From: Isoetes taiwanensis
Taxonomy: Eukaryota; Streptophyta; Lycopodiopsida; Isoetales; Isoetaceae
DNA length: 64,000 bases
Reading direction: 5' to 3'
Assembly (NCBI GenBank): GCA_021234155.1
Contig: JAJEKV010000034.1
Span: forward strand, 8,538,028-8,602,027
In this document: positions 12,134 through 49,080 of the stretch, one piece after another
How positions within the stretch are numbered: position 1 is the stretch's first letter
Layout: each line of letters begins with the position of its first letter
Translations under genes and position numbers: made by a program
The notes under the pieces: generated by a model
Told to the model about the DNA's origin: nothing
The model's database searches: none
What the model saw: the letters and a program-made list of their open reading frames with translations, nothing else

Positions 12134-13746
12134 TCGGACGCCTCGCTAAACGTGCCTCGTCCGCATTACACTTCGGCAGAAATCCCCATCCGCCGCAACA
12201 ACCGCGATGGGCTCTTTTCGCCTACCCCGCACTCCTCGAAGTTGACTCTTAGTGCGGGAAGGGAACATTAAGGTGTCTTGCACACCCTTTCCCTATGGGC
12301 TCCTATAACAAATGGCATAACACGCCGAACTAGCATCAACATATACAAATACTACCTCAAGGGTAGTGCATCACACATAAACCAAGGCAAAGATGATAAT
12401 CACCAACCATGAAACATGAGAGCTCCTACCCCGCCACTGTAAGGAGGATGACCGACCGCCAGGGCCTCAAGATAGAGCAGACCGAAGTCATGGCAATGGC
12501 GAGGGCTGGCATAGAACAATGGCTAGGGTTGACCACTCCATCCGGCCTCCTCCCCGCATACTTTGCAAATGGGCTAGATCAGGCTCGACAGACTTAGCCT
12601 TCCTGGATACGCAATCCCATGGCATCACCCATCTAGGACTACTCCAGTTGCATCTCCTCGTCCGATGAGGCAGAAGGGCTGCATCTCCCCTTCCCAGATC
12701 TAGAGGTGCCGGGCGGCTAGAGAATCGTGGGCGACACACCCATCGCACTGACTGAACCCCCCAAAACGAGAGCCAAGCCAACACTTGCAGCCTCGAGGCG
12801 TGGCAACACCATTGCCCTGTGAGGTGTTTGACCCATGCTCGCCCACACCTAAGTGACCCACCATAAGCTCTAGCCCACTATGGGATCCCCTCGGCCCCCA
12901 CTCTGAAGGGATCCTCCCTCCACTTTCCCTCTAGCCCTGCTATATGGTGCTGAGTCATATCATAGCCTCAATAGCCCGGTGGGCCCTATGCACGCCTAAC
13001 CAAATAGGAACTAAGGGATCTACTCTAGAGCATACTACATATGGCTCTAGGTCTCTACCCCTTCCCAATACAAGAGGAGCAAACATGATCAACCATCATC
13101 ACATAATCATCACATCATGAGAATAATCATAAGAAGAACATCTTAACCTAATCATACAACTAACTAATGGTTAGGGTTCCTTTTGATTAGGTTCAAGATG
13201 TTGAATATGGGTTCTAGGATGGCTCTACTCTAGATACAAGATACTAGCACATCCGAATGCTAATTCCGCATGAGCTATCACAACTATTATCCTACATACC
13301 GCCCCTGAAGCTCTCCTCCAGATCCGCAGGTGCCTCCATGGTCTCCCACTCACGAGATGCCGCCCTACCCAAGAACGAAGTCTACCCTCGCTGGGGCGCT
13401 GCACCATGCCACAAAGAACGATGTTCAAAACGGGGTTTCAACCAGTAGGTGAGTCTCCGGGTGCTAGGGCCGGAAAGAGGTCTAGGGTTAGGGTTTATGC
13501 CTATATAAGTTAGGGTCCACCTAGGATGCCACGCGGCACCAATCGGTGAGTCCCGTGTGGCGGTGCCCCAATAGGTTAAGGCCACACGGATAATGGCTTA
13601 AACCTATGGCTGGCTAAGTTATGAGAATAACTTAGCCATGCCCCCTAGTGCCACAACCTATGGTATACAAGGCTATGAAGATAGACTTGTATAGTGACGG
13701 ATCCAGAATATACGATTTATGACGATATTCCCCCTCGACCGCCACA
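12134..13746 (-). repeat. 3' LTR of the chromovirus
   Basis: Collinear along its whole length with 28737-30384, including the 'gatgataatcac', 'gagctcctaccccgcc', 'gctagatcag', 'catactacatatggctctag', 'gggtttatgcctatataag' and 'taacttagccatgcccccta' blocks. It ends in 'gccaca' at 13746, next to the PPT. Copies differ mainly by short indels in GC-rich words. The first bases ('tcggacgcc') replace the 'tgtgacgcc' of the partner. Confidence 0.9.
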
Positions 13747-14599: not shown

Positions 14600-15960
14600 C
14601 ATACTAGCTAACCACCGGGTAAGTCGGGTCGCACCAAGCCCAGACGACACTCGCCCATCAAACTCCTTTTCATAAACTCGGGTATTGCTTCTCCAAGTCT
14701 TGCTTCAATACCCATGTCGCATCTTCCACGGCAAGTGCTTCCACTTAACCAAATACCGAGGAACCGAGACCTCCTAGTCTTCTTGAATGACTTATCAAGA
14801 AGTAAATTCGTGCACTATTTCTACTTGCTTCCTCCATCATTTCCAACAAGGTTGGAGTATCCAAAACCTCCCTCGGGTTAGGATTGTGCCTTTTAATAAA
14901 CTTACGGGAAGACCTTGTGAACCTTGGAGATGGGCCGGAAGATCCAACTTGTAGGCTTGAGAGCCCACTCTCTCCAAAAATCTTGAACGGACCAGCCCAC
15001 CTAGGGGCAAGCTTTTGCAGCCCCAACCCGCAGCCTTGGCTTGCTTCACCTTTATCTTTCAACCAAACGCCATCGCCACCTTGAACTCTCTTACGGTCCT
15101 ATGTGCTTGTCTGGCTACACTCTTCTCGGGCCACTTTTGCCGCCAATAAATAACCCCTTACTTTTCCACTAGTCGCCGATATCCCCTAACATCCGGCCGG
15201 ATACTTTACCTTGGACACGATTGTGCCGTATCCGGTTAAGCATCACCGGCACCGCAATTTACCATGAAAGGGAGACATCCGAGATGACTCCCCGCTTGGC
15301 ACCGCTGTAGGCGCATTCCACCAAGTGGATGTACCATCCCACTTGGACCGCTTTGTTCCACACATAACTTCAAGCATGTCTTCAATGATCCGATTCGCCC
15401 TCCCGTCTGCCATCCGCTTTGGGGATGATATGCCGCGGCTCATGGAGAGCTTCGTCTCAATGGTGTTGAAGAGGTCCCGCCAAAGGCACTCATAAACTTG
15501 GAATCCCTATCGATATTATCTCCCCGAGGCATGCCATGGAGTCTTTGCGAAAAATCTCCCTTACAAATAACTTGGCAAGATCTAATGCGGTGTCAAGATC
15601 TTGCAAGGCACAAATGTGCCATCTTAGATAACTTATCTACGACAACCATCAATGCATCCTTGCTCAAGAGTTCTAGGGAGACCTCGTGATGAAATCCATG
15701 CTTATGACCTCCCACTTTGCATTTGGCACCCCAATGGCTCAAGAGCACCTGAACTGGGTTGTTCGCTTTGGTTCAATGACATAACCGGTAATCCCGAATA
15801 TATGCAGCTATTCGCCTCTTCATTCCCGCCAGAAGTAAGCTACTAATCTTGAAATAGGTCTTCATGAAGCCAAGATGCCCCCGCTATTGGGCTGTTATGT
15901 GTCATGAAGAATTAGCTTCCTTACCCCTCGATGATTCGGCACACACAAACTTATGCTTGT
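14600..15960 (-). pseudogene. Chromovirus integrase and C-terminal chromodomain, frameshifted
   Basis: Minus-strand pieces give the integrase in order. The first catalytic Asp lies in 'MDFITRSP' (about 15700), the second in 'DRDSKF' (about 15515-15496), then 'AAYHPQSG' and the Glu region (about 15430-15370). The C-terminal part has 'KLAPRWAGPFKI' (about 15007-14972) and 'VSLLKRHNPNPREVLD' (about 14900). A chromodomain follows at 14800-14650: 'YLVKWKHLPWK' and an 'ATWVLKQDLEKQYP' segment, the aromatic-cage type fold that reads methylated histone tails and can bias integration to heterochromatin. Each segment sits in a different frame, with stops between, so no intact enzyme is encoded. Confidence 0.85.
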
Positions 15961-15999
15961 GATACAACAAAGTTGCCTTCCTTCTTATAATGCTTGAAG

Positions 16000-17560
16000 G
16001 CTTCCCGCCTCTTATCTCGCTTCGCTTCCTTGGAAAGACTTTCCCATACCTCCTTGAAGTTCACATCCGCTGGCAAGGACTCTTCGCCTTCTTGCCAAAC
16101 TCACTGAAGAGTGGAAATCGTGATACAATGCGCCCTTGTTCGAAATGGTCTCCCTCGAGAGGGCATCCGCTACAACATTAAGCTTACCGTGCTTATACAT
16201 AATATCAAAATCATACCCTCAAGGAATTCCATCCACCTCCTTTGCCTTTAAGTTGAGGAGTGGTGGGTGAAAGATAATGAAGGCTCCGTGATCAAGATCC
16301 AACCGAAACTTCCTTCCCAGCCAGATAATGCCTCCATATCCTCAATGCCCCGACAATGGCTAGCAGCTCCCATCATGGGTTGGGTAGCTGTTGCTAGCGT
16401 TCATCTTCTTCGAAGTCGTAGGCGACTACCCTTCCTTCTTGCATCAAGACCGCCCCATATATCTTGTTTGCATCCGCTGCTACCAACTTATCTTTTACTG
16501 ATCCGAAGAACAAGCACCGGTGTCAAGTGTTAAGGCCTTTTTTTTCTCAAAAGAAGCTTTGACTTTCTAACCAATGGCTAGTCCAATCCTTAATCTTCTT
16601 GGCCTTAGTGAGGTCCGGCCGTGGGACGCCCACTTAGCAAAGTCCTTCACGAACTTTTCATATCCCGCCAACCCGAGAAAGCTTTTACTTCCGCCACATT
16701 CCTTGAGCTGGCCAATCAACTATTGCCTCAATCTTAGATGGATCTCGTGGAGATTCCCTGATGTTACTACATGCCCCAAATACTCCACTCGCCTGTTGCA
16801 AAGTGGCACTTAGAGAGCTTCCCATACAACCGATGACGCCTCAACTTCTCCAACACTTTCCTGAGATGCCGACAATGCTCCTCAAGGGACTTGTCAGAGA
16901 TTAGGATGTTGTCAAGAAGACAATAACAAACTCATCCAAGAAGTCTCTCAAGATGTCGCTCATGAGGCGATAAACGCTGCTGAGCATTCGATAGTCCAAA
17001 GGGCATTATCAGAACTCAAAATGACCATACCGCTGCTCGGAAGCGCCTTTATGGATATCCTCTTTTTATTCTTATCCGATGGTATCCCGATCTCAAATCA
17101 ATTTTAGAGAATACCTTTTGCTCCTTTGTAGCTGATCCATTAGGTCATCTCGCCCTTGGCAATGCATACTTATTCTTTATCGTCGCTATTGAGCCGGGCG
17201 ATAGTTCATGCACATTCTTAAGCTCCCATCTTTCTTCTTCAATAAAGAGTATAGGTGTCTCGAAAGGAGACACACTTGTTCTTATAAATCCAAGCTCGGT
17301 GCAATTCCCCGGTCGCTTTCTTTGAGCTCAATCAATTCTCGGGTGCTCATTCTATATGGCGCTTTACTGGTAGGCTTTCGCAGATCCCAGCCAATGTGAT
17401 CTCACATTCCACACCCCTATAAGGTGGGTTTCGCCGATTTCATCCGAAATACATCCTTGAACTCTGGGCCGCCTTTGCTATTCGCTAACCGATTCCCCTT
17501 TGGGTCATTTTTCTCCCGCTGCCAAGGCTCAACCGGATTCCATCCTCAAGATGTAGTCCA
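16000..17560 (-). pseudogene. Chromovirus reverse transcriptase and RNase H, frameshifted
   Basis: Minus-strand fragments include the RT N-terminal region 'KAPYRMS' (about 17360), 'YSLLKKKDGSLRMCMNYR' (about 17240-17190), the catalytic-loop region 'DEFVIVFL' (about 16940-16915, where one base appears lost before the conserved acidic pair), 'RNVAEVKAFSG' (about 16700) and the RNase H/connection end 'KHGKLNVVADALSRE' (16197-16153). The order is that of Ty3/gypsy pol. Multiple stops and frame changes make it inactive as read. It sits between protease and integrase, as expected. Confidence 0.85.
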
Positions 17561-17599
17561 CCTTATTCTTTTCTATACTCTTCCTTAGCCGCCAAAGAA

Positions 17600-19382
17600 A
17601 TACACCGCATGGGAGAAATCTAGCTTACCTTTCACTATCAATTTGTTGCCATCCGGTGCCGCCATGGTGACTTCATTCCGGCCGCAATCAATCATGGCTT
17701 TGGCTGGCTTCAAAAAATTCCATCCCCACTATCGATCATATCTTCCATGTCCATGACTTCGCCTCCCATCGCCACTTAGCCCCACTCAAGGTCTATGTCA
17801 AAGGTGATCCTCCTCCCTTAGTGTGCCCGATGGCCGGCTGCCATAGCACCGGGCCTTGGCTTAGACTTCAATACCTTGTTCTTCATTAGAGCAGCCAATC
17901 TAGGAGATGCAAAATTATGAGAGCTACCCAGATCTATGAGGACTACATAAGGATTACTATCTATGATCCCATCCGCCGCGATGACAAATGATCGATTCTA
18001 TATCACCGCCCCCAATGTTTGCACATATGTGGCACTCACCATCTATGAAGTCCTCGCCCCTCCCCGCCGGTCGCCGCCCCGCCCGCTCACTAGAGTCCTA
18101 ATCCAAGAGTTCTCGCCAAGGCCGACCGCATGACGAATGGACAATCATGTGTTCGGTGCCCCCGCTGGAAGCACCGGCGCATAACTTTTCTTTTCCCTCG
18201 CTCTCCCACCTTCTAAGAAACTGTTTAGGAGACGCTAAGAGCACCGGCCGATGCATTCTCCTTCGTGGGCTTTACTTCGGCCCCTCAAAGCTTTGTTCTC
18301 ACCCCACCTTTGCTGCTGACTCTCGATGGTGTAGCTGCCGATTGCTTACCCCCGATATTGCCCCCGACATCAGCTGAACTCTACCCCCTGAAGGTTGGAT
18401 CGTCGCTGGAGTTGCTGGTGCCTCTTCCAAACTTATAGCTTTATCTTCGCCCTCAGGTAACCGGACACTTTGATTGTTGCTAACAAGCCTCTTGATATTA
18501 AGCCGCTCAACCCTCACGTAAGTATCCACCTTGCCTTCAAACTCCAGGAACATGCAGCCTCGAAAGCCTTCATAAATTTTCTTCGTATATTTAGCCAATC
18601 GATAGCTACCCTCGATTCAACCTCAGAAAACCATTAACTGGCCTACTAATATGAGACCTTGGCACATATAGTGCTTGCGAAAGCCTTGTCAAGGTCTTAA
18701 ACCCGCACTTGTTCCTCTTTTGCTTGTTGACTTAGCATATCCCTTCCACCGCATCCTTGCCGTCCAATAAGGTTAGTCAGAAAGTAACTTTCCCTATGTC
18801 CTTGTCTTCATACCGTATGAGTTGCCAAATTCTTCCATTTCATCAAGCCATGCTTCAGCCTCCATGCCTCGACTGCCTTTCCCCCGAGAACCGCCGAGCC
18901 TTGTCTTCCATACATTGCTCATAGCACTATCCACCTTTTTCTCGATAGTCATCCGTCTTTCTTGCTCTTTTCCTTTTTTTTAGGTGTGCCCGACCGACCG
19001 CGCCGAGCTGAGCCGTCCCTCACTGGAAGAGCTATCCGATGAGCTGGAGCTAGATGATGATGGACTTTGGTTCCTCCTCTTCCCTTCTCCTATCCCCTTG
19101 ACGCTCCTTGGTTGCCCTCCCTTCCCCGGGCCGAGGGACTTCGCCACCACCACCCGAAACAAGGTGGAGGTGGAGGACCATCTTCCCCGCATTCATGAGA
19201 GGTGTCGCCAGCTTGATGAGATGTTGCATTTGGTTCTCATCTGCACCAACCTTTGCGCTGACCGCCTCATGTGACATATCCTCGCTCAAAAATCTTCTTT
19301 GTTCCCCGCCAAACAAGTTCCTTGGTACCCATTGGTCGGTGGCCGGTCTTGAGATCCCGTGACTTGAGTTCCTTGGTCGCAA
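17600..19382 (-). pseudogene. Chromovirus gag and protease, frameshifted
   Basis: The reading frame opens at 19382 (minus) with a region containing 'ADENQMQHLIKLATPLMNAG', then a Ser/Glu low-complexity linker (19180-18980). A capsid-like segment follows, with 'HGLMKWKNLATHTV' and 'SYFLTNLIGRQGCGGRDMLS' (about 18870-18720) and 'RLAKYTKKIYEGFRGCMFLE' (18600-18545). The aspartic protease is marked by 'VVLIDLGSSHNFASPRLAAL' at about 17945-17890. The active-site triad reads D-L-G where D-S/T-G is usual, so the catalytic motif looks altered. Frameshifts break the unit throughout. The 195 bp upstream of 19382 are AT-rich and non-coding. Confidence 0.75.
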
Positions 19383-19577: not shown

Positions 19578-20193
19578 TGTTAGCCTCAGGTGCCAATTGC
19601 ACACACAGTCTATACTTGCCGTGATGAGGGCGAGGCCCCACTGCCACGGGGTCCAAGAAGAGGGAGCCACAAGGCATGCCACCTACGGCCAAAGCTCCTC
19701 CAAGAAGCGGTAAAGACCCAAAGGTAGGACCCACCACGGGCCACCACTTGTCCGTTAGCACGTCACCATACAGCTCGGGATTCCCTCGCTCGAGTGCCCA
19801 AGTAGTGGAGCACGCTGTCATCATGATGAGGATCGATTCAGGCCCGTGAGGGCCACCCGTTTCCTATATATTGTAGCATTTTTTGCTCCTTCAAAAAAAG
19901 AGGGGTTCGTGAGTGTTCTTTTGTGTCACTACAGAGCGCACATGCCGGTCGCCTCTGTGCTTTTTGAGCCTTCATTGTACACTTGTTTTGATCAATGGAT
20001 TGCCGTGGTTCTCCACAAGTGTCTTGTGTGTTTCATTGTGTATTGCCATTGCCGCTTTTATCTCGAAGTTTTTCGTTCTTTCCTCCGTTAGCAAAAATCC
20101 CCGCACAAGAGTGTTCTCGTGATTTGCCCCCGCCGACTTCACGGATCTCACAGATCTGTCCCCTCAGCGATCCCGCAGCCCGGACCCCAAACA
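19578..20193 (+). repeat. 5' LTR of nested gypsy element
   Basis: Carries a TATA-like 'tcctatatattgtagc' at about 19862 and the conserved block 'cattgtacacttgttttgat' (about 19972). The same order is seen in the 3' copy at 24112-24727, with equal total length and scattered compensating indels. Confidence 0.88.
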
Positions 20194-20879
20194 CCGGCGC
20201 CGATGGTTGCCGCCTTTCAAAGCCGTATTGGATACCATGTTCAATCCCTTCTTTACCCCTTTACGATATTCAACACCGATGGAGTCAAGACGCCGCCGCC
20301 ATGAACCAGCGCCGGGACCCCCGCTGGAAATATGTCCATACACTACCTCGTTCGATTGTCTCTTCTCCCGTACGAGCGCACTGCTCCACCTACACCACGA
20401 TTAATTTTTCCAGACCGACCTCCCCGTGGAAGGTCGCCATTGTTCCGCTCCTCGCTCGCCATTATCATGCAGGCCGCAACACGCCTTTGAATTTACTCCA
20501 CCGAATCCTAACTCAAGATCCGACCGTAACCACCGCAATTTTCTCCCGGAACATTCGCAAAATGTTTCTATTGGTAATCTTTCTTTAGGAACTTCGTACC
20601 ACCGCTTCCACCTTTTGTCAATTCCCCTACCGCCTCGTTCCTTTAATCGTTCCCCACACTGCTTCATGCCCTCGCTACAACCTTTGTTCCCACTACAATC
20701 GCTTCAGCAAGCTCTTTTTTACTAATCTCACACAACCTATGCCAGCTTTGTACCTATGCAAAGAACCAACACCCATCGCCTTTTTTTTCCACAAATGCAA
20801 ACACCCATTCATGCTACCGAATTCTACACACATGCTTTAAAACTCCCATATCCACTCTTTGAAATGATAAAGGTAAACA

Positions 20880-23800
20880 CATAGACCGTGAGTGCTCAGC
20901 TCACATGGATGAATTTGAGTCACTTGCAGATCTCAATGGTCACCCCGATCCAAAACTAAAATTCCACATCTTTTTCGACGCACTTCAAGGCGGAGCACCC
21001 CTTACCTAATGGCCGATGGCAAACAAAAGCCACCGGAAACAAGATTGATACACATGAAGACCTCTTTTCTTTCCCATTACGACCCTTTGGCGATGATCAA
21101 CAACCGCCGAACGACCTCAACACACTCAAGCGAACCCAGAGAATCGCCTCGAGACTTTGCGCATCGACCGGCAGATCTTAGTCAACAAGTTGAAGGAATT
21201 TCCAACCCAAAGCCAAATTCTAGTGTGGTTTCTTCAAGGCTTACCCTCTCACATCCGATTTATGACTGAAGTATTTGCCTCAAGACATTACAAGAAGCCA
21301 TTGAATTAGTCAATCACTGCTCATATGTTTTCACGCCAAGTGATCAAGCCACGATACTCCCATTTCCCCGCTACACCCCACGCTTCAGACCCTCGACCCT
21401 TCCACGGCAGCTCCCCAAGAAATAACATTTGGTACTATTTGCCAAGATTCGTGACATCCGCTAATGAGTGTAACTCGCGGGATAGCATGATCCATTGCAA
21501 ACGCCGCAACATGCGTAACCACACCAATCAAGAATGTACAAATCCACCACCAAACCAGATCGACAACGCCTTTGTTCACCAAGTGCGTAGGTACCCACGC
21601 AAAACTCAACCACGCATTACAGCACAAACCTACCAACAACAACAACCCCAAAGAATAACAAGAACTACAACGGGACCTCCTCGCTCCACTTTTGATCCAA
21701 GCAAGTCCTAATGTTTCAACTGTGGACCAATGGGGTCATACGGGCCCCACAGATTGTCCTCAACTTCCTCAAGTTCAAATACAAATTCCCTCGCACCAAT
21801 CAAACCACCTACGCGCGGCCTTACACCTTTTTCAAGTATGGGAAGCCAAGGGAAGGCAAGGCCCACGCCTGCTCAAACGGCCACCACCGGCCACCACAAC
21901 AACAACCACGCCAACAAAGAAACAACTCAAAAAACAATTGATGATCAACTCCAAGAAGAAATTTACTATGCAATCAACACCAGCCTTGAATCCTCCAACC
22001 GGATTGAGGTTCTCCTCATTCCCCACGCCATAAGCACCCCTGCACCAAGTTTTTGCAGCCGATTCGTACTAGCTGAGCCATCAACCAAATTGCTCATTTT
22101 GCACCTAATTGGATCAACTACTTCCTCATGTTCAACCTAAACTTCGCGAAAAGTCCGCTTCAACTCATCGAACGCGCGTATGTAAGGCACTCAAGTCTGT
22201 CAATGCTACCACACGACGGAGCCACCACCACTAATGCCACGAATCCGCAGAACACCACCACTCAACATTGTCAGGCCTTTAAGCTCCACCTCCTCAACAA
22301 GGTAGCGACATCTATTGCCGAGCAACAACAACCCACGGATCCACCACAAACTCACCTGCATAACTCCCCCCTAACTTCAACAAGAACTTGCTAAAATCAA
22401 AATTCCTCTCAAAATTTTATTTACTATTCCTACCAACTATGTCCAAAGACTACGAAAGCACATTTTACAAAACCTCAGATACCTCGGTTAATGCAAATAC
22501 ATCAACACCTACCTGCATGCACACGGTAATAAAAAGGTCGCTCACCATGTTCGGGGATCGGGTGGCAAATAAGCGGCAGCCAAATCTTATTACAGATAAT
22601 CTCTTCGCACGATAATTAAGCATAAGGGAGCCCCACGCTCTTTATGACATCAAGCTTGCTTAATGGCCATATCAACGCTAATACCACAAGGAGTTACAAT
22701 AAACCAATACCACCAATATTGAGATCTACAATTTACCATGGAATTCTGTTTGGAGAGCAGAGAAGATCCTGAGATTATGAAATGTTAGTAGGATCAATCT
22801 TTTGAGACAAGCTAAAAGCATTCACCATCGGGCCACAGATCAACTTGTTATCACAGATGGCAAGCTCATCACACGATGGATCTCGACCACGCCAGATCAT
22901 TTCTCAGATCACGCCAATCGACAGTGACTCGAACAAGTTTGCAACACCTATCAGTTATAAGCCAAGGGTTTGCCACCACCTGCCACCCGTATCACAATCA
23001 ACCATGGGAAGACATGGATATTGATAAAGGCATAGCAACGCCGTTGACCCCTATTTGACACCTTTGTAACAACGTCACATTGGTTCCACATGAGGAGACT
23101 GCATTCTACCCTCCTCCTGCTCAAGAAGACACCACACAACCCCTAGTGGCACGCCACTATTTTTCAAAATTGGTCAACATGAACATCCCCGTCTCTACTG
23201 CGGAGCCAGCCCACACCGCTCGTGATGATCAAGTCATTCCACACATTCAAACTCCCCGCAGAGACATAATTGATATTGGAACAAATCAACCAACCGATTG
23301 GCACGCGACCACGCCGCAAAGATTCAGAGAGCAAGCCATTGTGCTATTCAAACGCTTCAAGCACATCTTTGCTTGAGCTACAAAGACCTCCGAGGTATCA
23401 AGAAAGAATTGGGACAACTCTCGATTCCCACTAAGCCGATGCTAGACCCATCTAGCAACGATAAAGACGGGCTTAACCCAAACTACCGTGGAAAAGGTTA
23501 AAGCCGAAATTGACAAGCTTTTTGACGCCGGACTTATCTACGAGGTCAAACATTCGTAATGGGTAAGTCCTATTGTTCACCGGAGACAACACAAAAGAAG
23601 GAAACCCTCCTTGCCGGGTATTACCGCCCACGCTTTCAAAGATGCTCACAAATACACACACGCGCGTGATGTTTGTCGAGGCTTGGTAGACCCACCGCCC
23701 GGTGACGCCTCGCCACACCAATAGCCACGCCTCCCTTTGCCAAATGGGGTATGGATTTTGTTGGTCCCATGGACCCACCCGCAATCAACACTAGGGGCAC

Positions 23801-24075
23801 GCTACATTCTAGTCTTCACCTTGACTATGCAACCAAATGGGCTGAAGCGCAGTGCTCTACTCCTCGACAACACCTACCGCTAGTACAAATAAGGTTCTCT
23901 ACAAGAACATCATCACGCCGATTTGATGTCCCTTTAGAATTAGTTAGTGATCGTGGAGTTCATTTCATCAATCACACTATTGCTGAACTCACTAACTATC
24001 CGCACATTCATCACGTAAAAGCACGCCTTTACTATCCCCCTCGGGTAATGGCTTGGCTGAAAGCACAAACCAATA
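20880..24075 (+). pseudogene. gag, protease remnant, RT start and integrase core of nested gypsy element
   Basis: Frames in order: a gag segment at about 21060-21400 ('RLTLSHPIYD' and neighbours in shifted frames); a CCHC zinc knuckle near 21711-21765 (C-FNC then WGHTGP-DC, split by a frame change); a region at 21930-22140 where a protease would lie, without a clear D-S/T-G; the N-terminus of RT at 23440-23580 ('KAEIDKLFDAGLIYEV', 'WVSPIVHR'). The sequence then jumps straight to the integrase zinc region ('DAHKYT', about 23640) and core: 'MDFVGPMDPPAINT' (23749), 'LVSDRGVHFINH' (23940) and 'NGLAES' (about 24047). These are the D, D and E blocks. The RT catalytic core, RNase H and integrase C-terminus are missing, so it is non-autonomous. 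Confidence 0.8.
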
Positions 24076-24111
24076 AGTGTGTGTGCCAATAAGTGTAGTT
24101 TGGTAGGGGAG

Positions 24112-24727
24112 TGTTAGCCCCTGTGCCCCGCGCATACTACCACAGTCTATACTTGCCGCTGCATGAGGGCAGGCCCCACTGCCACGGCGGTCCAAGAAGA
24201 GGGAGCCACAAGGCTTTCATCACTGCGGTCAAAGCTCCTCCAAGAAGCAGAAGACCCAAAGGTAGGACCCACCCACGCTGGCCACTACTTGTCCATAGCT
24301 AGCACGGCCGCGACAGCCTCCGATTCCCTGCTCGAAAGTGCCCAAGTAGTGGAGCACGCGTTGTCATGATGAGGATCAGATTCAGGGCGTGGGCCACCTC
24401 CGTTCCTATATATTGTAGCATTTTGCTCCTTCAAAAAGAGGGTTCAGAGTGTTCTTTTGTGTCACTACAGCGCATATGCCGGGTCGCCATCACAGCTCTT
24501 TTGAGCCTTCATTGTACACTTGTTTTGATCAATGGATTGCCGTGGTTCTCCAAGTGTCTTGTGTGTTTCATTGTGTATTGCCATTGCTGTTTATCCGAAG
24601 TTTTTCTTGTTCTTTCCTCATAGCAAAAATCCCGCTGACAAGAGTGTTCAGGATTTGCCCCTCGCCGACTTCACGGATCTCACAGAGATACGCCCTCAAG
24701 CGATCCTTTGCCCCCGACCTCCAAACA
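24112..24727 (+). repeat. 3' LTR of nested gypsy element
   Basis: Same length (616 bp) and block order as the 5' LTR, directly preceded by the purine tract. Ends CCAAACA, followed by CAAAA. Confidence 0.88.
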
Positions 24728-24751
24728 CAAAAATTAAGAAAATTTCACAAT

Positions 24752-26281
24752 TATTCGGCCTCCTCGAAGCCCGAAGAAGTTCTTGACATCCCCTGAATAG
24801 GGAGGCCTTTGCCGAGGTTGCTAAGATGTTCTCGCCGATCTTCCTTCAAGTGCTCCCCGCCATCTCCCGTTCTCGAAGTTCCTGCCGCTGTCGCTACCAC
24901 CGAAAGTGTTAAGTCCCCTAAGGTGCCCTCTCAAAGTCGAGGCAATGGAGCGACCGCCTGTTGAAAGAATGATGTGATCGCATGGGCGATATTATCGAAA
25001 GTGCCGCCCCCCGAGAGTGCTATGAGAAGTGCCACGGATTCTTCCCCTTGGGCTGAACTCCTTGTGGAAGACTATCATTTGCCCTTGGCTGAGGGCTGGA
25101 AGATAGTAGCGTGCGTCGTCTTCCCCACGCCTCGCATCCAAAGGTTCTTCCTTCCGAAGCCGCTTCACCGTAGGCATCCACCGCCATCGTCTTCATGATC
25201 CCTCCACATGCCGGGGTTGCATTGTCCAAGTTGATGCCGCCGGACCCTTCCCTCATGCTCCCCGCTCGAACCGGTCCCGCTTTGAGCTTGGGCCCTTCCT
25301 GGTTTGTAGAGTGTGCTCAGATCGCTGAACTCCTCCTCCGAGATGATAGGTTCCCGCCGCCGATAGATCTCCCCTTATTCGCCGATAGGGTCGCTATGTC
25401 CGACATTGTCTCCCCAAAGATAAGAGTGTCTCTCCGCCAAATCCTTGGAATCTCCCGGTATGAGTAGTCGGCGAGGTCCTGCAGGGTTTTCTTCCGTGTG
25501 CTATCATGCCCAAGAGCTCGCCGATTCAAGACCCCGTTTCTCGACAAGAGGGACAAGTTGAGGATGTCATTCGCAAAAATGTACTCCTCCCCCGGCCGAT
25601 GACTATCTGGTGACAAAGCCGTGATGCCGACCGGTGGGTCGGTAGCCGTTTCACGCCGCCGCCATGCCTCAACGCATACCTCCGCATTCTTGTTGCCTCC
25701 TGCCTCCCATTCTCGGGTTCTACCCCCTAGCCGCCGTAGTCTTCATGTATCTCAGAGATGGTGCCCCCGGACGCCGCGCCGTAGTATTCGTGAGGCGGAG
25801 GACTCTATATTCGTGGATTTGATCCCGGGTCCCTACGGGTATCAAGTGGCGCTTAAGTCTAAGGGCTGAACAGGGGGTTCCCCTACTGCTGATTGACTTA
25901 TAGTGCATGAAGAGGGCAAGGGCCGCCCCGAGTGGAAGGTACCTATGCCTATTATGTCTCAGCAGGTCATGTAATCTGCATGGTCCTAGTCCTATCCCAT
26001 AGCTGCTTGCCTTTGGATCCTGCCAACTCTCGACCTAAGGCTTGGGTAAGTGTCTCAAGAGAAACCCAATTCCCTCCCCTAGGAGGCAGTCTAACTTCCC
26101 AAGGCAGGACCTGCTGGTCATATTGGCACATAATGTCCGTGTAGTAGGGTGTTCTAGTCAAGGTTGCATGAAGATCAAACAAGTGATCAAACACAGAGAA
26201 GGCTTGATCTACAGGAAGCCGATGGATATGGCTTGCAAGATTGTACCATCTCTCTCGGTTGCCGGGCCATTGAGCGTGCAA
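24752..26281 (-). CDS. Unrecognised reading frame between H3-like frame and gag, disrupted
   Basis: The minus-strand sequence upstream of the nested insertion behaves as broken coding sequence. The best segment (26281-25967) contains 'NRERWYNLASHIHRLPVDQ', 'AFSVFDHLFDLHATLTRTPY' and 'WVSLETLTQALGRELAG'. Further segments follow at 25616-25317 ('NDILNLSLLSRNGVLNRRAL') and 25256-25020. A candidate stop follows a Glu-rich end near 24752, just before the nested LTR. I do not recognise a family. It is not the usual capsid region, which lies further on at 18.6-19.0 kb. It may be an extra retrotransposon reading frame or captured host sequence. A TATA-like box lies about 100 bp upstream. Frame changes make an intact product unlikely. 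Confidence 0.4.
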
Positions 26282-26379
26282 GGGTGTAGAAAATGGCTTG
26301 CAAGGATCGATGGAGGTTCGTAAAATCGCCTAAGGGGCCGGAGCGGTTCTCAGAGAAGGAAAAAATGGCAAATGGGACC

Positions 26380-26389
26380 TATTTTTATA
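26380..26389 (-). promoter_or_regulatory. TATA-like box upstream of the unknown frame
   Basis: On the minus strand, TATAAAAATA is followed by a pyrimidine-rich stretch ('ttttttccttctc'), and the reading frame opens about 100 bp further on. The spacing fits a plant core promoter, but no initiation data exist and the motif could be chance in AT-rich sequence. Confidence 0.35.
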
Positions 26390-26599
26390 GACTATGGGTG
26401 ACCTCGAGGTTCGTGCAAAAAGGTACCTACCTAAGACGACCTTGGTTCTATGGCTCTGGGTGTCCAAATGAACTACCATGAAGTGCAAACTTAAGCAAAA
26501 CAAAGCAAGAAACACTACATGGCAATTTGTTGGATCAAATTTGGCTAATTTGGGCCAAAGATGGCTGACCCGGTGAACTGGCCATGATGGCCTCCTGTC

Positions 26600-27078: not shown

Positions 27079-28204
27079 CTAAGGCCTCTCTCTCATGCTA
27101 ATCCTCCGTGCTAAGTGAATATCCTTGGGCATAAGGGTAACTCTTTAGCATGGATAGCTAGGTTCCCTTCCTCGAAGAGCTGGACCAGCTCGCCTAAGCC
27201 TCTTGCGTGGCCCGGTCATTAGAGGGGTAACCCTATAATCGGGTCCTAATCGCTGCAACACCTCTCTAAGGAGAGACTGGCGGGCCTTCCTTATCGGGAG
27301 ATTCGTGCAACATCCGAAGTGCCTAATCTCCCTAAACACCCCAAGCAGATGTGTTGCTCGCCCGTGGTGAACCCTCTTGGGTTTTCCTCCCCTAGGTGGG
27401 GTGGCTTTGGGCTGGTTCTTCTTCGCCTGCCGCTCCACGACGCTGGCCGCACCTCCCGGGCGGCAATACCACTCATTTGTACCTGGCCCAACGACGCAGG
27501 GTACTCCTTGTATGCCACCATCTTCCGCTTAAACTCATGGTCCCCGGCTGGAGCCAATGCCCGCCTCCCCTACCTTTTGCTTCTTCACCACCTTAGGTGG
27601 TTCCGGCCACTTGGGGTAGGGGTGGCCTGGCCGCCGGGTCCCCGCTTCTCTTCCTCCTCCTCTTCCTCCACTTGTGGCTCCTCCTCCGTAGGGAGGCTCT
27701 TCAATAATCCACGGTCGCCTAGCGTCGTTCCCGGCTTCTCTTCTCAGACCTTTCTTGCTCCTCAGCTCCTTTCCCCGCTCCCCGCTTCTTTCGTGGCCCT
27801 CTCCTCCACCCACTTTTTCCTTCCCTTCTTTTTGGCACCGGGGGCCAGCTTCTTCGGCCTGCGGTGGTGGTGCTTTCTCCACCACGCTTCTTGACTGTTC
27901 CTCCACCTCGGGTGTCTGCGAGGCCCCAGCGGCTGTGACTCGTCCGCTCTTTGTGTTCCCGGCGGCGGGGGGCTGCCATCGGGGCTGCTCTCGGCATCGC
28001 GGAAAGCTCGGGTCCCGCCGCCGCTTGAGGGCTTATTCCCTCGCCTCGGTGCCGGTACCGAAGGTGCTTTCGGGAACTTTCTTCACGTCGCATCTCGGCC
28101 GCTACTGCGCCCAGTGAGGGTGGGGCGCTCACTAAACTTCCTAGCTGTTTGTTTGGTATGTACCACATCTTGTGGTTCAAAATAGGTGACGAAAGGATGA
28201 GCAA
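27079..28204 (-). CDS. Histone H3-like protein frame inside the chromovirus leader
   Basis: A minus-strand frame opens at 28204 (or Met at 28171), after about 530 bp of leader behind the PBS. It encodes a long basic region (R/K/E-rich, about 27720-28120). The last roughly 110 codons match the histone H3 fold in order: a tail piece 'GGKPKRVHHGRATHLLG', alpha-N 'VFREIRHF', 'TNLPIRKARQSLLREVLQRL' (alpha-1), loop 1 'GPDYRVTPL', alpha-2 pieces 'TQEA' and 'LVQLFEEGNLAIHAK' in neighbouring frames, and alpha-3 'RVTLMPKDIHLARRI' before a stop at 27079. 'EIRHF', 'TN' and 'VTLM' recall plant centromeric H3, while 'IRKA' and 'MPKDI' are canonical. At least two frame changes lie between 27230 and 27130. 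H3 is normally about 136 residues; here a several-hundred-residue extension precedes the fold. An A/T-rich, 3'UTR-like stretch follows. I am confident of the H3 homology, but not of activity. Confidence 0.75.
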
Positions 28205-28736: not shown

Positions 28737-30384
28737 TGTGACGCCCCCGCTAAACGCATTTACGCCCTACCGCATACACTGGCAGAAATCCCCCATCCCT
28801 CCAACAACCGCATGGGCCCTTTCGCCTACCCCCGCACTCGAGGTGACTCTTAGTGCGGAAGGGAACACGAAGGTGTCTTGCACGCCTTCCCCTATGGGCT
28901 CCTATAACAAATGGGGTTTATAACACGCCGTAACTAGCATCAACATATACAAATACTACCTCAAGGGTAGTGCATCACACATAAACCAAGGCAAAGATGA
29001 TAATCACGAACCATGAAACATGAGAGCTCCTACCCCGCCCGCCTCGCACTGTAAGGAGGATGACCGACCGGCTAGGCCTCAAGATAGAGCGCACTCGAGT
29101 CATGGCAATGGCGAGGGCCGGCATAGAACAATGGCTAGGGTTGACCACTCCATCCGCCCCTCCCCGCATACTTTGCAAATGGGCTAGATCAGCTCGACAG
29201 TAACTCTAGCCTTCCTGGATAATGCAATCCCATGGCATCACCCATCGGGACTACTCCTGTGTTGCATCTCCCGGTCCGATGAGGCGTGAAGGGTTGCATC
29301 TCCCCTCCCTGTGATCTAGAGGTGCCGTGGCGGCTAGAGAATCGTGGGCGGCACACACCCATTCGCACCCCACCAACCCCCTCAAAAACGAGAGCCAAGC
29401 CAACACTTGCAGCCTCGAGAGGCAGTGTGGCAACACCATTGCCCCCTGTGAGGTGTCTGACCCATGCTCGCCCCACACCTAAGTGACCCACCATAAGCCT
29501 AGCCCACTATGGGATCCCCCGGCTTCCCCCACTCTAAGGGATCCTCCTCCACTTTCCCCTCTAGCCCCGCTATATGGTGCCGAGTCATATCATAGCCTCA
29601 ATAGCCCTGTGGGCTCCTATGCATGTGCCTAACTAATAGGAACTAAGGGATCTACTCTAGGAGCATACTACATATGGCTCTAGGTCTCTACCCCCTTCCC
29701 AATACAAGAGGAGCAAACATGATCAACCATCATCATATAATCATCACATCATGAGAATAATCATAAGAAGAACATCTTAACCTAATCATACAACTAACTA
29801 ATGGTTAGGGTTCCTTGATTAGGGTTCAAGATGTTGAATATGGGTTCTAGGATGGCTCTACTCTAGATACAAGATACTAGCACATCCGAATGCTAATTCC
29901 GTGATGAGCTATCACAACTACTATCCTACATACCTGCCTCCCCAAGCTCTCCCTCCGTGATCCGTGGTGCCTCCATGGTCTCCGACCACGAGATGCCGCC
30001 CTACTCCAAGAACGAGTCTACCCCCGGGCTGCAGACCACTATGCCACAAGAACGATGTTCAAAACGGGGTTTCGGAACCAGTAGGTGAGTCTCCTGGGTG
30101 CTAGGGCTGGAAAGAGGTCTAGGGTTAGGGTTTATGCCTATATAAGTTAGGTCCACCTAGGATGCCACGTGGCACCAATCGGGTGAGTCCTGTGTGGCGG
30201 TGCCCCAATAGGTTAAGGCCACGTGGATAATGGCTTAACCTATGGTTGGCTAAGTTATGAGAATAACTTAGCCATGCCCCCTAGTGCCACAACCTATGGT
30301 ATACAAGGCTATGAAGATAGACTTGTATAGTGACGGATCCAGGAATATACGTATTTATGACGTATATTCCCCTGGACTGTCACA
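28737..30384 (-). repeat. 5' LTR of the chromovirus
   Basis: 1,648 bp, reading TGTGACAGTCCAGG on the minus strand at the 30384 end and closing in GGGGGCGTCACA at 28737. Collinear with 12134-13746. A TATATAA/TTATATA palindromic core lies near 30140 and may hold the promoter. The right flank is ATAGC. Confidence 0.92.
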
Positions 30385-31289: not shown

Positions 31290-33085
31290 TCCATGGATCT
31301 AGAGAAGGTCAGCACAGTATTTGATTGGAAAACACCTTTCTCAGTTAAAGATGTACAGTGCTTCTTGGGGTTTGCCATTCTTGGGGTTTTTATCGCCACT
31401 TCATCAAGAACTATTCGGAGATTATCACGTCTCACCAGGAAGGATGTTCCTTTTGAGTGGATAATTGAAGCAAAATCAGCATTCATCACTTTGGAGTATG
31501 CCTTTACAAAGAAGACTGCTTTGCACACTCGGATCCTTTGCATGCCTATATTCTCGAAGCTGATGCATGAGATTTTGCTCTTGGCAGCATCTTATCGCAA
31601 GAGGGGATGATCATGAGCTGCACCCGATTGCCTATCATTCTCGAAAGTTCCAGGCTGCTGAGATCAACTATCCTATTTATGATAAGAAACTTTTGGCGAT
31701 CTTTGACTCTTTTCAGGAGTGGCGACGATTTCTTGAAGGTTCTTCTCATAAGTTAACTATGTATATGGACCATCGCAACCTGTAATATTTTCAGTCTGCT
31801 CGAGTTCTTAATCGTCGTCAGGCTCGATGGCATACACAGATGCTATCCCGTTTTGATTTCATCATCAAATTTTGGCCTGGCACACTTTAAGAAAATCCAG
31901 ATTCTCTTTCTCGCAGATCCTATTTTGAACCTAAGACGGGGGAGCCAGCATTCACTCAACAATCACAGGTTATTCTAGGACTTGATCATTTCCTTCTTAT
32001 GGCCATCACCTTGTTCAAGAGGCCTCATGATGCATCCTTGTTGGAGTCTATTCGAGCATCTCTTCTTTTTGACCCTTTGGCACAATATGTATTTTCACAT
32101 CTTGGCTCCTAAGATCGCCTTCCCAAAGAAATGCGTTGGATTATGATCATTTTGAGGCTCAAGATGGACTTCTGTTTCGTGATGGACTTTTATATATCCC
32201 GTATGGTGCTCCTCGACTTCAAGTCTTGTAGTCCTGTCGTGATTCTCCTCTCGTCAACCATTTTGGGATTGCCAAGACTCTGGAACTCGTTGCTCGAGAT
32301 TATCGGTGGCCAGTTCTCCGCCGCACTATTGAGACTTTTATACGCTCCTGTGATATTTGCTATTGTGCAAAAGCTCCCAAACACCGGCCCACATGGCCTC
32401 GCTTTCAGCCTTTTACCGTTCCAAATCGGTCCTTGAAGAGCACTTCAGGATTTCAAAGTTCGGGCTTCCATCCTCCCAGGCCTTGACGCCATCCTTGTTC
32501 TCGCTGGATCGCTTCCAAGATGGCGATTTCATTCCTTTGCAGCACTTCTACCTCCAAAGAAGCCACACGATCGTTTCTTCTTTTGCTTCGAGAGGTGGTT
32601 CGACTCCATGGCTTGCCAGATACCATTGTCAGTGACCGCGACCCCCAGTTTATTGCCAGATTTTAAAAGGGTCTTTTGCAACTCTTGTATGTGGAATGTT
32701 CACTCTCTTCCGGACATGACCCAGAGACCAACAGATAAGTGGAGCGCACTAATCAAACACTTGAGCAGTATTTGCGATGCGTCATCAATTATCAGCAGGA
32801 TGATTGGGTTGATTGGCTACCTTTGGCAGAATTTGCTTACAATAATTATGTCCATGCTTCCACGGGCCAGACATCATTCTTTATTAATTTCGGCATGCAT
32901 CCCCGGTGGTCTTTCATTGCTCCTAGATGCGACTCAGCCCAGTTCCAAGGACAGGCTCGAGAAGCTCCGCATACTCCAGGATGATCTTCAGCACCATCTC
33001 CTCCAGGCCCAAGCACGTTATCATTATCATGCAGATCAGCACCGCCAAGATGCTCCTCCTTTTGCCCCAACTAAACAGCTTCTAT
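31290..33085 (+). pseudogene. Ty3/gypsy pol fragment (RT end, RNase H, integrase)
   Basis: Plus-strand pieces in shifting frames give the RT tail 'DWKTPFSVKDVQCFLGFA' (about 31320-31375), RNase H 'ELHPIAYHSRKFQAAEINYP' and 'YDKKLLAIFDSFQEWRRFLE' (31615-31735), 'YMDHRNL' (31765), the integrase zinc region 'HFGIAKTLELVARDYRWP' (32260-32310) and 'SCDICYCAK' (32350), 'SVTATPSLLP' shifting into a 'SDRDPQFIARF' block (32628-32665), and '[20 protein letters not shown]' then '[20 protein letters not shown]' (32735-32860). There are no LTRs, gag or protease. It ends where LINE-like sequence begins near 33090. The motif style is closer to fungal and animal gypsy elements than to the chromovirus in this window. 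Confidence 0.85.
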
Positions 33086-39493: not shown

Positions 39494-40165
39494 TGAAGTA
39501 TGTTGTCATGTAATAATTTCAAATAAGTTCTACAGAGGTTAGACCATGTTAATTATCTGATTGTATGTTTACATGGTGAACTAGGTTTGCTAAGGTTATT
39601 GAGAAAGCACAAAATAAAAAGTTCAATGGTTTGGGGCAACGGAAAAACCCTGAGCCCGTGGAATATTAGCTCGATCGAGTTTTCTCAGTTTAGAAACTCA
39701 ATCCACTGCGAAACCGATGGATCGTGGCTTTAAAACAAGAAACAAAGATGTAAATCATGACACCAAGCAAGCAGAGCTAAGGATCGACGAGTTTAGGGTC
39801 GAATCCGGTCGGGTCAACTATGCGACAGTAACTGGGTCAATCCCAGATCTATAGTAAACCTGCTACAGTAAATTCAACGGTTTTATTATGATTTACTAGC
39901 TTGTTATTCTATAAACAAAGACTTGAATAGCTTAACTTAGTTATTCAACTACTTGGTGTTGATTTGATTCTAGCCTTATGTTCCTAGTATGTTTATACAA
40001 GGCAATCATAGTTGAAGGTTCTTGGATTAGTGACCAAATTGTGGCTCCATAAACCTAGACTGTGCATTGAGAAAATGAATACAAGTGTCAATTAAGGTTG
40101 TTAGCAAATTTGGTGGAACAATTTGTATTGAAAAGTTTTTGACAAATTGAAATATAAACACAACA
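39494..40165 (+). repeat. 5' LTR of copia element (672 bp)
   Basis: Compared with the 3' LTR it lacks about 41 bp after 'ctacagagg' (near 39540) but holds about 190 bp (roughly 39735-39925, from 'acaaagatgtaaatc' to 'gaatagcttaacttag') that the 3' copy lacks. Confidence 0.95.
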
Positions 40166-40166
40166 T

Positions 40167-40179
40167 TGGTATCAGAGCC
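40167..40179 (+). other. Primer-binding site of copia element
   Basis: TGGTATCAGAGCC, the canonical methionine-initiator tRNA type PBS, one base after the LTR end. Confidence 0.92.
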
Positions 40180-40191
40180 AAGTTGTTCAAG

Positions 40192-41143
40192 ATGTCAACC
40201 AGGTTTGGTGCCAATTTGCTAGCAACTATTGAAATGTTTAAAGGTGATACAGGTTTTCAAATTTGGAAAGAAGGAATCAAGTCAGTTCTGGAGTTTGAGA
40301 ATCTCTGGGCCTCGATTGATGGCGCATTTTGCCATGGTTACTTCGCAATTCCTATTGTGGTCCGGTGATCAGAGGTACTAATCCAGGAGGTGGTCCAACT
40401 TTGAGTGCAAGTGCAAGCTCAGGTGTTGTGTCCACTGTAGCTGGTGGAAGCAGTCCTACAGTACAAACAGATGCCACACAAATAATGGAGGCTCAAGCCA
40501 TTATCATGAGCAAGGTAGGAATTGTTTTGAAGTTAAAACTGAGAGGTAAGCAACCTAAAGAAATGTGGGAATATTTGATTAAGCATTTTGAAGTTAAAAG
40601 TTCATCTCAGAAAGATGTCTTGGAAAAGCAACTTAGAAGGCTTAAGTTGTTTGAGAAAGATAATATAACTGAGTTCTTGGAGAAGTTTGATTCTATAGTT
40701 GCAGATTTGGAGGGTGCAGGTACTATTATAAATGATCAAAATCAAATTTTGTACTTGGCCAAGTCAGTATCCCATAATACTCATTTAGCTACATTATTTA
40801 GAAATGTGGCTACTAGCAAAGACCATGCTGTGAGAATGATTCAAACAGAGTTTGAGCAAACTCGAAGAGGGTTTGATGATGAAGAACAATCACCAGAAGT
40901 ATTGTATAGTGGAAAAGTCAAAAGAGGTGGAAGTAGCTCAGGTATGAGTAAAGATAAAATAGGGCCATGTTTTAAATGTAACCAGTACGGCCATTTGAAA
41001 GCAAATTGCACATTTGAAGGCAAAGTATTTAAGTGTTTTAACTGTGATGGCAAAGGACATCTAGCTTCAAAGTGTCCAAGTCCCAAGTCTTCAACTGGAA
41101 GAGGCAGAGGTCGTGCTCGAAGTGGAGGCAGAGGAAGAGGATG
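40192..41143 (+). pseudogene. Copia gag with two CCHC zinc knuckles
   Basis: It opens at 'MSTRFGANLLATIEMFKGD' (40192), with 'FQIWKEGIKSVLEF' typical of the copia gag N-terminus. A frame change near 40365 leads to the main capsid segment, including 'KQPKEMWEYLIKHFEVKSSS' (40550-40610). Two knuckles follow: 'CFKCNQYGHLKANC' (40968) and 'CFNCDGKGHLASKC' (41034), then an RGR-rich tail and a stop at 41144. The protein packages element RNA into particles. It is broken by one early frameshift plus the stop before protease. Confidence 0.85.
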
Positions 41144-41156
41144 ATTTCAATCAAGT

Positions 41157-41822
41157 GTGAATCTGGTCAAAGAAGAAAATATAATTGAAGGAAGCAGTGA
41201 AGATGAATTACTTGAGGTACAATGTAATCATGTCTCAAATAATATCCTTGCTTCAACATCTATGCATGACAACTTTTGTGTGATAGATTCAGGAGCAGAA
41301 AAAAGTGTAGTCTTCAAGTCAAGTCTGCTAAAGGATTGTGTAAAGAGATATGGACATATATAGTTAGGAGATGGTGGAGTTCAGCAAATTAAAGATGCTG
41401 GTATTTTAGAAATCTTTGATTTGAATGGAAAACCTGTAAAACTCAGAGATGTGCTGTGTGTACCTAGTCTAGTAAGAAATTTGATTTCAGTATGCCAACT
41501 TGTTGATCTTGGATACAAGGTGGTGTTTGAGAAACTGGAATATAATATATTTCTTGATAATGAAATCAAATTTGTTGGCAGACGTGTTGGAAATTTGTTT
41601 GGATTTCATTACAATCATATTCCTTGTCTTAATTCTGTTGAATGTACATCCAAACAAATTTGGCATACCAGACTTGGTCATACAAACTTCAGAAATCTTG
41701 ACATATTGGAAAAGAGAGGCTTGATTTCTACAACTCCAAGAGTATTTGTGCTGGTTGTATGCTTGGGAAGCAAGTCAGACAAACATTTAAGAAATCAACT
41801 CACATGTCAAAAAGGGTCTTAG
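41157..41822 (+). pseudogene. Copia aspartic protease and GAG-pre-integrase segment
   Basis: The active site 'CVIDSGAEKSVVF' lies at 41277-41316 (D-S-G-A). A stop at about 41363 interrupts it. The frame resumes at about 41420 with 'LRDVLCVPSLVRNLISV' and 'QIWHTRLGHTNFRNLDIL' (41658-41710), the pre-integrase H..H motif. A frameshift near 41725 moves the frame into the integrase. Confidence 0.82.
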
Positions 41823-42628
41823 ATTTAATCCATACAGACTTGTGTGGACCTATAAATGTGACTAGTATATCTGGATACAAGTATTTTATGACATTTATAG
41901 ACGATTTCAGCAGAAGAACTAGCTGTTATCTATTGAAGTCAAAAGATCAAGCATTAGATGCACTTAAAATATTTGTTGCTGAAGTTGAGTTAGAAACTGG
42001 AGTTAAGATCAAACGTATTAGATCTGACAGAGGTGGTGAATATCTATCAGATGAATTTAAGTGGTATTGTGCATCTAAGGGTATTAAAAGGCAACTTACA
42101 TGTAGATATTCTCCACAACAGAATGGAGTGGCTGAGAGGAAAAATAGGACATTATTGAATGCAGTTAGGTCCATGTTAAAATACTCAGGGTTGCCTAATT
42201 TTTTGTGGGAGGAGGCAGTGAAAACAGCTGTGTTCATTCAGAACAGGTTACCTTCTGTAAGCATTAATGGAGCCATACCTGAAATGCTATGGTCTGGTAA
42301 ATCTCCATCATTTGACAAGTTTAAAACTTATGGTTGTTTAGCTTTTGCTCAGGTTCCAGAAGAATTAAGGAAGAAGCTTGATGATCAATCCTATATCTGC
42401 TATCTGGTAGGTTATGATGCAAACTCAAAAGGATATAGATTATATAATCTAGCACAAAGGAAAGTTATTGTTAGTAGAGATGTGGTATTTTCTAAAAAAT
42501 GGTTTTATAAAACTATTCCTAAAGTAAATACATCAGAAGACATAGAAGGTCTGCATAATCAAGAAAGAGTTATTAGTCTACATGAGGAACTAGAGAAACA
42601 AGAGGAAAAAAATGTTGCAAATGGCTAG
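41759..42628 (+). pseudogene. Copia integrase (289-codon open segment)
   Basis: The zinc-region tail is followed by the DDE core: 'LIHTDLCGPINV' (41826, first Asp), 'IRSDRGGEYLS' (42020, second Asp) and 'PQQNGVAERKNR' (42115, Glu), spaced as in copia integrases. Downstream are 'FKTYGCLAFAQVP' and 'YLVGYDANSKGYRLYN' (42400-42450). This is the longest undamaged copia domain in the window. A stop at 42626 separates it from RT. Confidence 0.9.
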
Positions 42629-42709
42629 ACTAATGTTGCAGATATTAGTGATGATGAGAGTGAGGTAGACCTTAGCTTTGCACATCAAGAATTAAAGGAA
42701 CCAGCAAAT

Positions 42710-44503: not shown

Positions 44504-44511
44504 AGGGGGAA

Positions 44512-47040: not shown

Positions 47041-47737
47041 TATGAAGTAGGCCGATAGAAATACAGAATACATACAACCAAATAATACACAGACATATGA
47101 AAACTAGAACTTTTCCTTCAATAAAAAAGTAATCACTTTACATGCCTCGAAAGTACTTCGTCAAGGCAACATTTTGCCTCATTATTATTACCCTCTTTCC
47201 ATGCTCAACACATTACACACAGAAACCTGACTATGTGATTCTCAGCTACCTCGTGCAAAGCATCAATGGCATTTCCAATGAATTGAGTCACCCCTCCTAG
47301 CATTAGAAAAGCTCTACCAGAATTGTGGTACTTTCTCCTATCCGTCTTCTTCCTAGCATACCTAGTATGAACCTCCTCTCTGCAAATTTTTGCCATCATC
47401 AGTTTCGGAAATACCTACTCTACGTGATTCTGGACGTGCTGGAACTCCCGAATCCACCTCAACTTTGGCTTAAATGGCTGGCCCTTCTTCTTAAGCTTCG
47501 AAGTACCTTTACAGAGAACCTGTTTCTTCTGCAGCTGCATACGCTGATTGATTTCCTCCTACATCTACTAGGTTGCGTAGTCTCAAAAGTCGTCTCAATC
47601 TCAAGAGCCACCACTATTTCCGGTACTACGGTGACAGGTACAACCTTTACCGGAACTGAAGCTGGTACTCCATCTATTCCAATGACATCACCTCCAATCC
47701 GAACTGTCATAAGGATATCCTGGACAGGGATATCTTG

Positions 47738-48724: not shown

Positions 48725-49080
48725 AAACAAGAAAGTCGTAAACTTCTTCTTTCAAGTCGGACTCCTGGAGACCAGCATCCAACAAGTCTATAAGACGATG
48801 AATCTGCGGCTCCCTCTCTTCTCAAGTCAGTCGAATTATAGCCTTATCCATCTCGGACAAGGCCAATGCAACTCGATTGGCAGCGAAAGAATACATATTA
48901 AAGCCATCAAAAACATGTACGGCAATATCTCTCCTGAAAGCCACTACTCGATCAGAATTGGCAGGTAATGGGACGTGACTTCCAATCAACGAGAAGGCCT
49001 TCAGTTTCAAAACCTCCTCAGGTCCAGATAGGCTGTACCTGGAATGGGGCACAACGATTTCTCCCGTACGAAGGTAGCCT
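48725..49080 (-). CDS. Unrecognised exon-like frame
   Basis: The minus-strand frame at 49080-48822 ('EVLKLKAFSLIGSHVPLPAN', 'DRVVAFRRDIAVHVFDGFNM') continues after a stop into 'HRLIDLLDAGLQESDLKEEV' (about 48800-48740). Amino-acid texture is protein-like and leucine-regular, suggesting a real past exon. No family recognised. It may belong with the frames at 49.9-52.1 kb. Confidence 0.35.

Follow-up and report, generated by a model that had tools for sequence, protein, structure and literature searches.

An H3 histone gene carried by chromodomain Ty3/gypsy retrotransposons of the quillwort Isoetes taiwanensis, and a dead copy of it

The chromoviruses are noted for carrying a domain that reads marks on histones, and an element lineage encoding the histone itself would have a direct route to change host chromatin. 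The nearest precedent is the H3-like gene H3L in a hAT DNA transposon of Pyrenophora tritici-repentis (PMC3538342); in the part of that paper at hand, the carrier is a fungal DNA transposon that has terminal inverted repeats, H3 stands as an ORF of its own and the copies are recent and near-identical. The quillwort element reported here is instead an LTR retrotransposon, with LTRs and a reverse transcriptase in place of the hAT features. Its H3 is fused to new domains and belongs to several divergent families, and, as far as the accessible text on H3L allows the comparison, it has more copies and measurable purifying selection. The element resembles the plant Ty3/gypsy chromoviruses, as portrayed in the available sections of PMC3350952, in its LTRs, primer-binding site, gag, PR-RT-RH-INT order and chromodomain at the C-terminal end of integrase. 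Two features set it apart from that portrayal: an H3 ORF lies ahead of gag, and many copies also have an orphan ORF2.

Two other kinds of system are close in different respects. An orchid Gypsy lineage carries an AlkB m6A demethylase, argued to counter host control, and is alike in that an extra host-derived domain has been fixed in an LTR lineage, although the extra domain is a different one (PMC9289625, available in part). The same partial source counts 15 extra domains in LTR retrotransposons of 121 angiosperm genomes, with no histone among those described; by its title of scope, the screen covered angiosperms and no lycophyte. Parasite-encoded histones are found in giant viruses and, as H4, in bracoviruses (PMC9145170), and the bracovirus H4 enters host nucleosomes and acts via its N-terminal tail (PMC5423620). 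In the excerpts of these two papers, the carriers are DNA viruses and not retroelements, and an H3 fused to the N-terminal domain described below is not seen among the viral histones (PMC9145170). Searches of the open-licence PMC literature, a body of text outside which most subscription papers and bioRxiv lie, listed no retrotransposon with a histone gene. The word histone is absent from the main text of the I. taiwanensis genome paper and was not found in the accessible portion of the I. sinensis genome paper (PMC10541799).

The locus lies in a 64-kb window, the whole stretch of DNA that was analysed. Within a decayed Ty3/gypsy element on its minus strand, positions 27079-28204 carry a histone H3 frame that the retrotransposon encoded and that is now dead. 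We refer to the family of this frame as D and to three families of relatives with long open frames as A, B and C. The parts of the window element, in its own reading direction, are the following.

28737..30384, minus strand: 5' LTR, reading TGTGACAG...GTCACA; matches to LTRs of the H3 families run over pieces of 46-312 columns at 72-88% identity
28720..28736, minus strand: primer-binding site, TGGTATCAGG
28134..28168, minus strand: H3 N-terminal tail, HTKQTARKF, where family D copies have MARTKQTARKF
27380..28133, minus strand: long extension, basic/acidic, joining the H3 tail to the H3 core; its frame is broken and its limits were set by eye
27079..27379, minus strand: H3 histone-fold core, FREIRHF ... 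RVTLMPKDIHLARRI, with at least two frameshifts and a stop at 27079-27081; identified by tblastn, profile score and simulation control
25049..26430, minus strand: probable ORF2 remnant, from a weak tblastn match at 25126-25049 (E 0.08-0.14) together with order and orientation; outer limits set by eye
19604..24728, plus strand: gypsy-type element nested here, flanked by LTRs of its own at about 19604-20194 and 24141-24728
18422..18976, minus strand: gag remnant, by tblastn with the gag-pol frame of the relative L011 (E 1e-11)
14673..17985, minus strand: pol remnant, protease to integrase (E 2e-42, 8e-57 and 3e-17)
14673-15008, minus strand: integrase C-terminal end and chromodomain region, placed within the window by alignment alone
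12161..13746, minus strand: 3' LTR, 90.6% identical to the 5' LTR over 1650 columns

The LTR end and the primer-binding site read GTCACA-A-TGGTATCAGG, the latter being what we take to be an initiator-Met type of site; the target site is not clean. The best histone H3 match of the window by tblastn is 27453-27100 (E 1.3e-7). A profile made from the H3 cores of families A to C scored 25.1 bits at the window core, while the top score of the same profile among 40 Markov-simulated windows was 9.1 bits. All the H3-fold motifs quoted in the sequence-only reading are present on the minus strand. Its author overlooked the H3 N-terminal tail HTKQTARKF, which opens the region at about 28160-28134; TKQTARK occurs only once across the six frames of the window. 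The suspicion that this copy is dead was borne out: the core contains at least two frameshifts, one before ELVQLFEEGN and one before RVTLMPKD, and the extension contains stops or frameshifts. A Pfam search of four open pieces of the frame did not find a histone, while the relatives of the frame do match. The gene order in the window element is the same as in the elements of families A to C. The frame had been placed between the primer-binding site and gag. It does lie between the 5' LTR and gag; on weak evidence, the sequence directly after it (about 25.0-26.4 kb) looks like an ORF2 remnant rather than gag.

When the DNA of 27079-28204 was used as a query against its own genome, 1241 unscored first-look candidates were returned, and the 40 that were scored comprised the window and 39 further copies, 74-85% identical. 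Among the ten best-scoring copies, the start MARTKQTARKF is exact in eight, carries a single substitution in one and is broken in another, and H3-core pieces follow downstream in all ten. The core is uninterrupted in L032 and L039 (tblastn E 8e-38 and 1e-33), and both cores match PF00125 (1.7e-29 and 1.4e-23, respectively). The family D layout consists of the first nine residues of H3, a long extension and a divergent H3 core, with K4 and K9 kept in ARTKQTARK, followed by F. Most D copies are broken. The codon-position rates in the D core are 0.078/0.073/0.099, a weak periodicity, and the extension has none (11 copies). A D representative differs from host H3 at 38 of 96 positions, including 11 of 23 DNA-contact positions. 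Family D is largely decayed, and selection on it is only weakly supported. Since the core periodicity is weak and 11 of the 23 contact positions are changed, D may be unable to form ordinary nucleosomes.

Better preserved relatives came from a PF00125 search of the same genome (1,658,258,908 bases in 1110 contigs), which gave 8705 unscored candidates; 150 were scored, all above the cut-off. About 15 of the 150 are canonical-type host H3 genes (eight examined, L001-L008, and seven more with like scores). Four high-scoring canonical-type places lie within 300 kb on contig C1025, at 2980447-3280160 (L002, L003 and L008 among those examined). All 20 of the long-frame places examined (12 A, 7 B and 1 C), which were picked because their frames were long and their H3 scores high and are not a random sample, have stop-to-stop open frames of 445-494 aa. 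In every one of these frames the H3 core sits at or near the C-terminal end and shares 65-87% of its aligned residues with H3. The encoded ORF1 protein is made of a novel N-terminal domain of about 200 aa, a variable linker and a near-canonical H3 core. PF00125 matches the ORF1 of one A, one B and one C element; these matches and those of the two D cores give the histone-fold hit for which a profile search had been proposed. Residues 1-300 of one A protein had no relative at E<=1e-3 among about 5.77 billion proteins.

Over residues 36-135, the A, B and C representatives (one each) differ from host H3 at 16, 15 and 12 positions, respectively. As K36R, V89I, T107A and I124L are common to all three representatives, a single origin of families A, B and C is suggested. 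When the tail of A is aligned, P stands opposite K9 and a deletion or P opposite K27, and a STGGK14-like piece is kept; the B and C tails, aligned by eye, have no lysine at K9 or K27. On these alignments the H3 tail of A to C is replaced, with K9 and K27 lacking a counterpart and K36 being R. In the core, with one representative each, 20 (A), 21 (B) and 22 (C) of 23 DNA contacts are host-identical, as are 13 of 14 four-helix-bundle positions in all three. An AlphaFold model had a pLDDT below 50 over the H3 part and gave no structural support.

The elements that bear these frames belong to a chromodomain Ty3/gypsy lineage, with LTRs, target-site duplication, primer-binding site, gag, protease, reverse transcriptase, RNaseH, integrase and chromodomain, and the H3 ORF is the first ORF after the 5' LTR. 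One traced element is L011 with the adjoining L029, which together read LTR, ORF1, gag-pol with one in-frame stop, and LTR; the LTR pieces are 93.7 and 96.9% identical and the target-site duplication CAATC is found on both sides. Pfam places the L011 frames in the order gag (Ty3_capsid, Retrotrans_gag), protease, RT, RNaseH and integrase, and the gag itself gives a weak zinc-knuckle match. L011 keeps ORF1, and no ORF2 frame in it reaches 200 aa. The LTR pair of L026 and L031 is 95.4% identical. In L009 a 95.6% repeat, consisting of the LTR and a leader of about 600 bp, precedes ORF1 and recurs behind ORF2; ORF1 is kept and there is no gag-pol between the two LTR repeats. Because the second repeat copy also has the leader, L009 looks like a tandem arrangement sharing an LTR.

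The chromodomain PF00385 is found at the C-terminal end of integrase in L029 (E 1.1e-8) and L030 (4e-8). By reading of the sequence, one of the three residues of its aromatic cage is kept, the tryptophan, and for this reason H3K9me reading by the integrase chromodomain cannot be assumed. Group II plant chromodomains usually keep just the cage tryptophan, according to the portion of PMC3350952 consulted. The capture of an H3 gene by a chromodomain-type retrotransposon, as the sequence-only reading proposed, is supported.

ORF2 is an orphan frame of about 460 aa that follows ORF1 in A and B (L027:3017-4402 and relatives), is 46% identical between the two families and had no relative in the protein search. 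The ORF2 DNA was used as a query that does not itself contain H3; its source, L027, had been picked for H3, and the resulting sample is family A only. Of 855 unscored first-look candidates, 40 were scored (86-100% identical). An H3 match of the PF00125 search lies 251-284 bp upstream of ORF2 in 21, and tblastn found H3 upstream in all of the other 19 (best E per copy 1e-7 to 1e-62), at least nine of which have core stops or frameshifts. The H3 frame is therefore upstream of ORF2 in 40 of 40 scored family A copies. With the 39 further D copies added, neither of the refuting outcomes named in the sequence-only reading came about: the frame returns in relatives at a matching position, and profile searches of relatives give histone-fold hits. 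Five of the 40 (L027, L009, L025, L015 and L024) are also among the 20 long-frame places, so that 66 places were examined or tied by position to ORF2: the 20, 35 further ORF2-anchored copies, ten D copies and the window.

Selection was measured as dN/dS by the Nei-Gojobori method, as a ratio of means, with the truncated L028 excluded. The values for the core, N-domain and linker were 0.037, 0.119 and 0.228 in family A (55 pairs) and 0.020, 0.127 and 0.125 in family B (21 pairs), in copies chosen by H3 score, a choice that biases the core value downwards. Among the 19 ORF2-anchored copies outside the PF00125 list, a set biased in the opposite direction, eight open cores gave 0.091 (28 pairs). 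Between families, the core synonymous distance is undefined by saturation for A-B and B-C, and A-C has a dN/dS of 0.046 at a dS of 2.6; core dN is 0.12-0.15 in A-B and A-C, at or near synonymous saturation. The H3 core of A and B is under purifying selection.

The captured gene had been read as H3 or CENH3-like. In searches of PDB sequences with L016 (A) and L032 (D), the best 60 solved-structure matches listed were H3. Family D is identical to host H3 at 62 of 99 aligned residues, to Arabidopsis CENH3 at 44 of 82 and to human CENP-A at 46 of 83, and is without the two-residue loop-1 insert of CENH3 and CENP-A; against this, IRHFQ, TNLLI and RVTLM are common to D and Arabidopsis CENH3. Similarity and loop-1 length favour H3 for D, and a CENH3 origin is not supported. 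Families A to C do not group with CENH3 in the tree, and their 65-87% identity over the aligned parts is to H3. In a 28-row tree that includes Arabidopsis CENH3 and human CENP-A, A and B each form a group (99/99 and 95/97), and C falls beside host H3 with its placement left open. D, CENH3 and CENP-A are long branches, and the tree that had been called for leaves D unplaced.

What might a retrotransposon do with a histone of its own? By encoding a modified H3, the quillwort element may act directly on host chromatin. We give an even chance to the reading that the ORF1 H3 is built into host nucleosomes, as an adaptor unable to carry the K9, K27 and K36 marks. Host histone chaperones would assemble the element H3 into nucleosomes together with the H4, H2A and H2B of the host, and the N-domain would thereby be brought onto chromatin as a handle that the Gag or integrase of the element, or else host factors, could grasp. 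Nucleosomes without K9, K27 or K36 methylation could then lead to escape from silencing, to integration-site choice, or both. Incorporation is favoured because the core of A to C is kept for H4 pairing, the H3-H3 bundle and DNA contact, while the tail is swapped for an element-specific domain. A doubtful variant is that the element would form its own nucleosomes on element copies, with a tail beyond the reach of K9/K27/K36 silencing and an N-domain that recruits the integration machinery, and would in this way write a chromatin state. The H3-encoding lineage may show how such elements stay hidden, and its naturally occurring H3 variants, in which the marked lysines are gone and the core is under selection, could be used to ask what a parasite requires of H3.

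Other uses of the protein have to be set against incorporation into host nucleosomes. The H3 domain could be a tether: ORF1, in complex with Gag and integrase, would dock on host H4 or chaperones and bring the cDNA to chromatin without stable incorporation. A chromodomain integrase within the same element and an N-domain dN/dS of about 0.12, as expected of a protein-binding part, fit this, but the A to C core keeps the DNA-contact positions too, beyond the needs of a chaperone dock, and we consider tethering unlikely. That the H3 copies interfere with silencing enzymes or chaperones as a decoy or dominant-negative, the free ARTKQTARK end of D mimicking the H3 tail, is improbable: a decoy would not need a whole core conserved at dN/dS 0.02-0.09, even though ARTKQTARK is exact in eight of ten D copies and A to C have no K9 and K27 counterparts and K36R. 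Quite improbable, too, is a basic nucleoprotein that packages element RNA or cDNA in the particle. Giant viruses, in the sources available in part, do encode histones, and the core has kept its DNA-contact positions; the L011 gag, however, already has its weak zinc-knuckle match, and the kept H3-H3 bundle positions point to octamer partners. A lone H3 is moreover expected to require H4 for folding and DNA wrapping.

The possibility that these are passenger fragments of host H3 without function, amplified by hitch-hiking, is slight in the extreme. It would account for the many broken copies, such as that of the window, most of D and at least nine of the 19 ORF2-anchored ones. Against it stand the H3 frame in every ORF2-anchored A copy, the low core dN between families near synonymous saturation and the long open frames, and for A and B the passenger reading is already contradicted.

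The window contains further relics. At 47144..47489 on the minus strand are two collinear H3-like pieces in two frames (tblastn E 0.001 for both; 8.3 and 5.5 bits), and a piece like the C-terminal end of ORF2 lies upstream of them at 48864-49085 on the same strand (E 0.002). The former are possibly a second, older H3-like relic with another gene order, which is suggestive only, as one of the 40 simulated windows reached 9.1 bits. A partial LTR occupies 1-849 on the minus strand, with pieces 74-84% identical to the LTRs of the H3-bearing families, and a further member may lie just beyond the window edge there. On the plus strand, 31385-32894 is a pol remnant of a separate gypsy-type element, and 39540-45004 is, by reading of its frames, a copia-type element whose gag-pol frames are long and whose LTR pieces are 91-99% identical.
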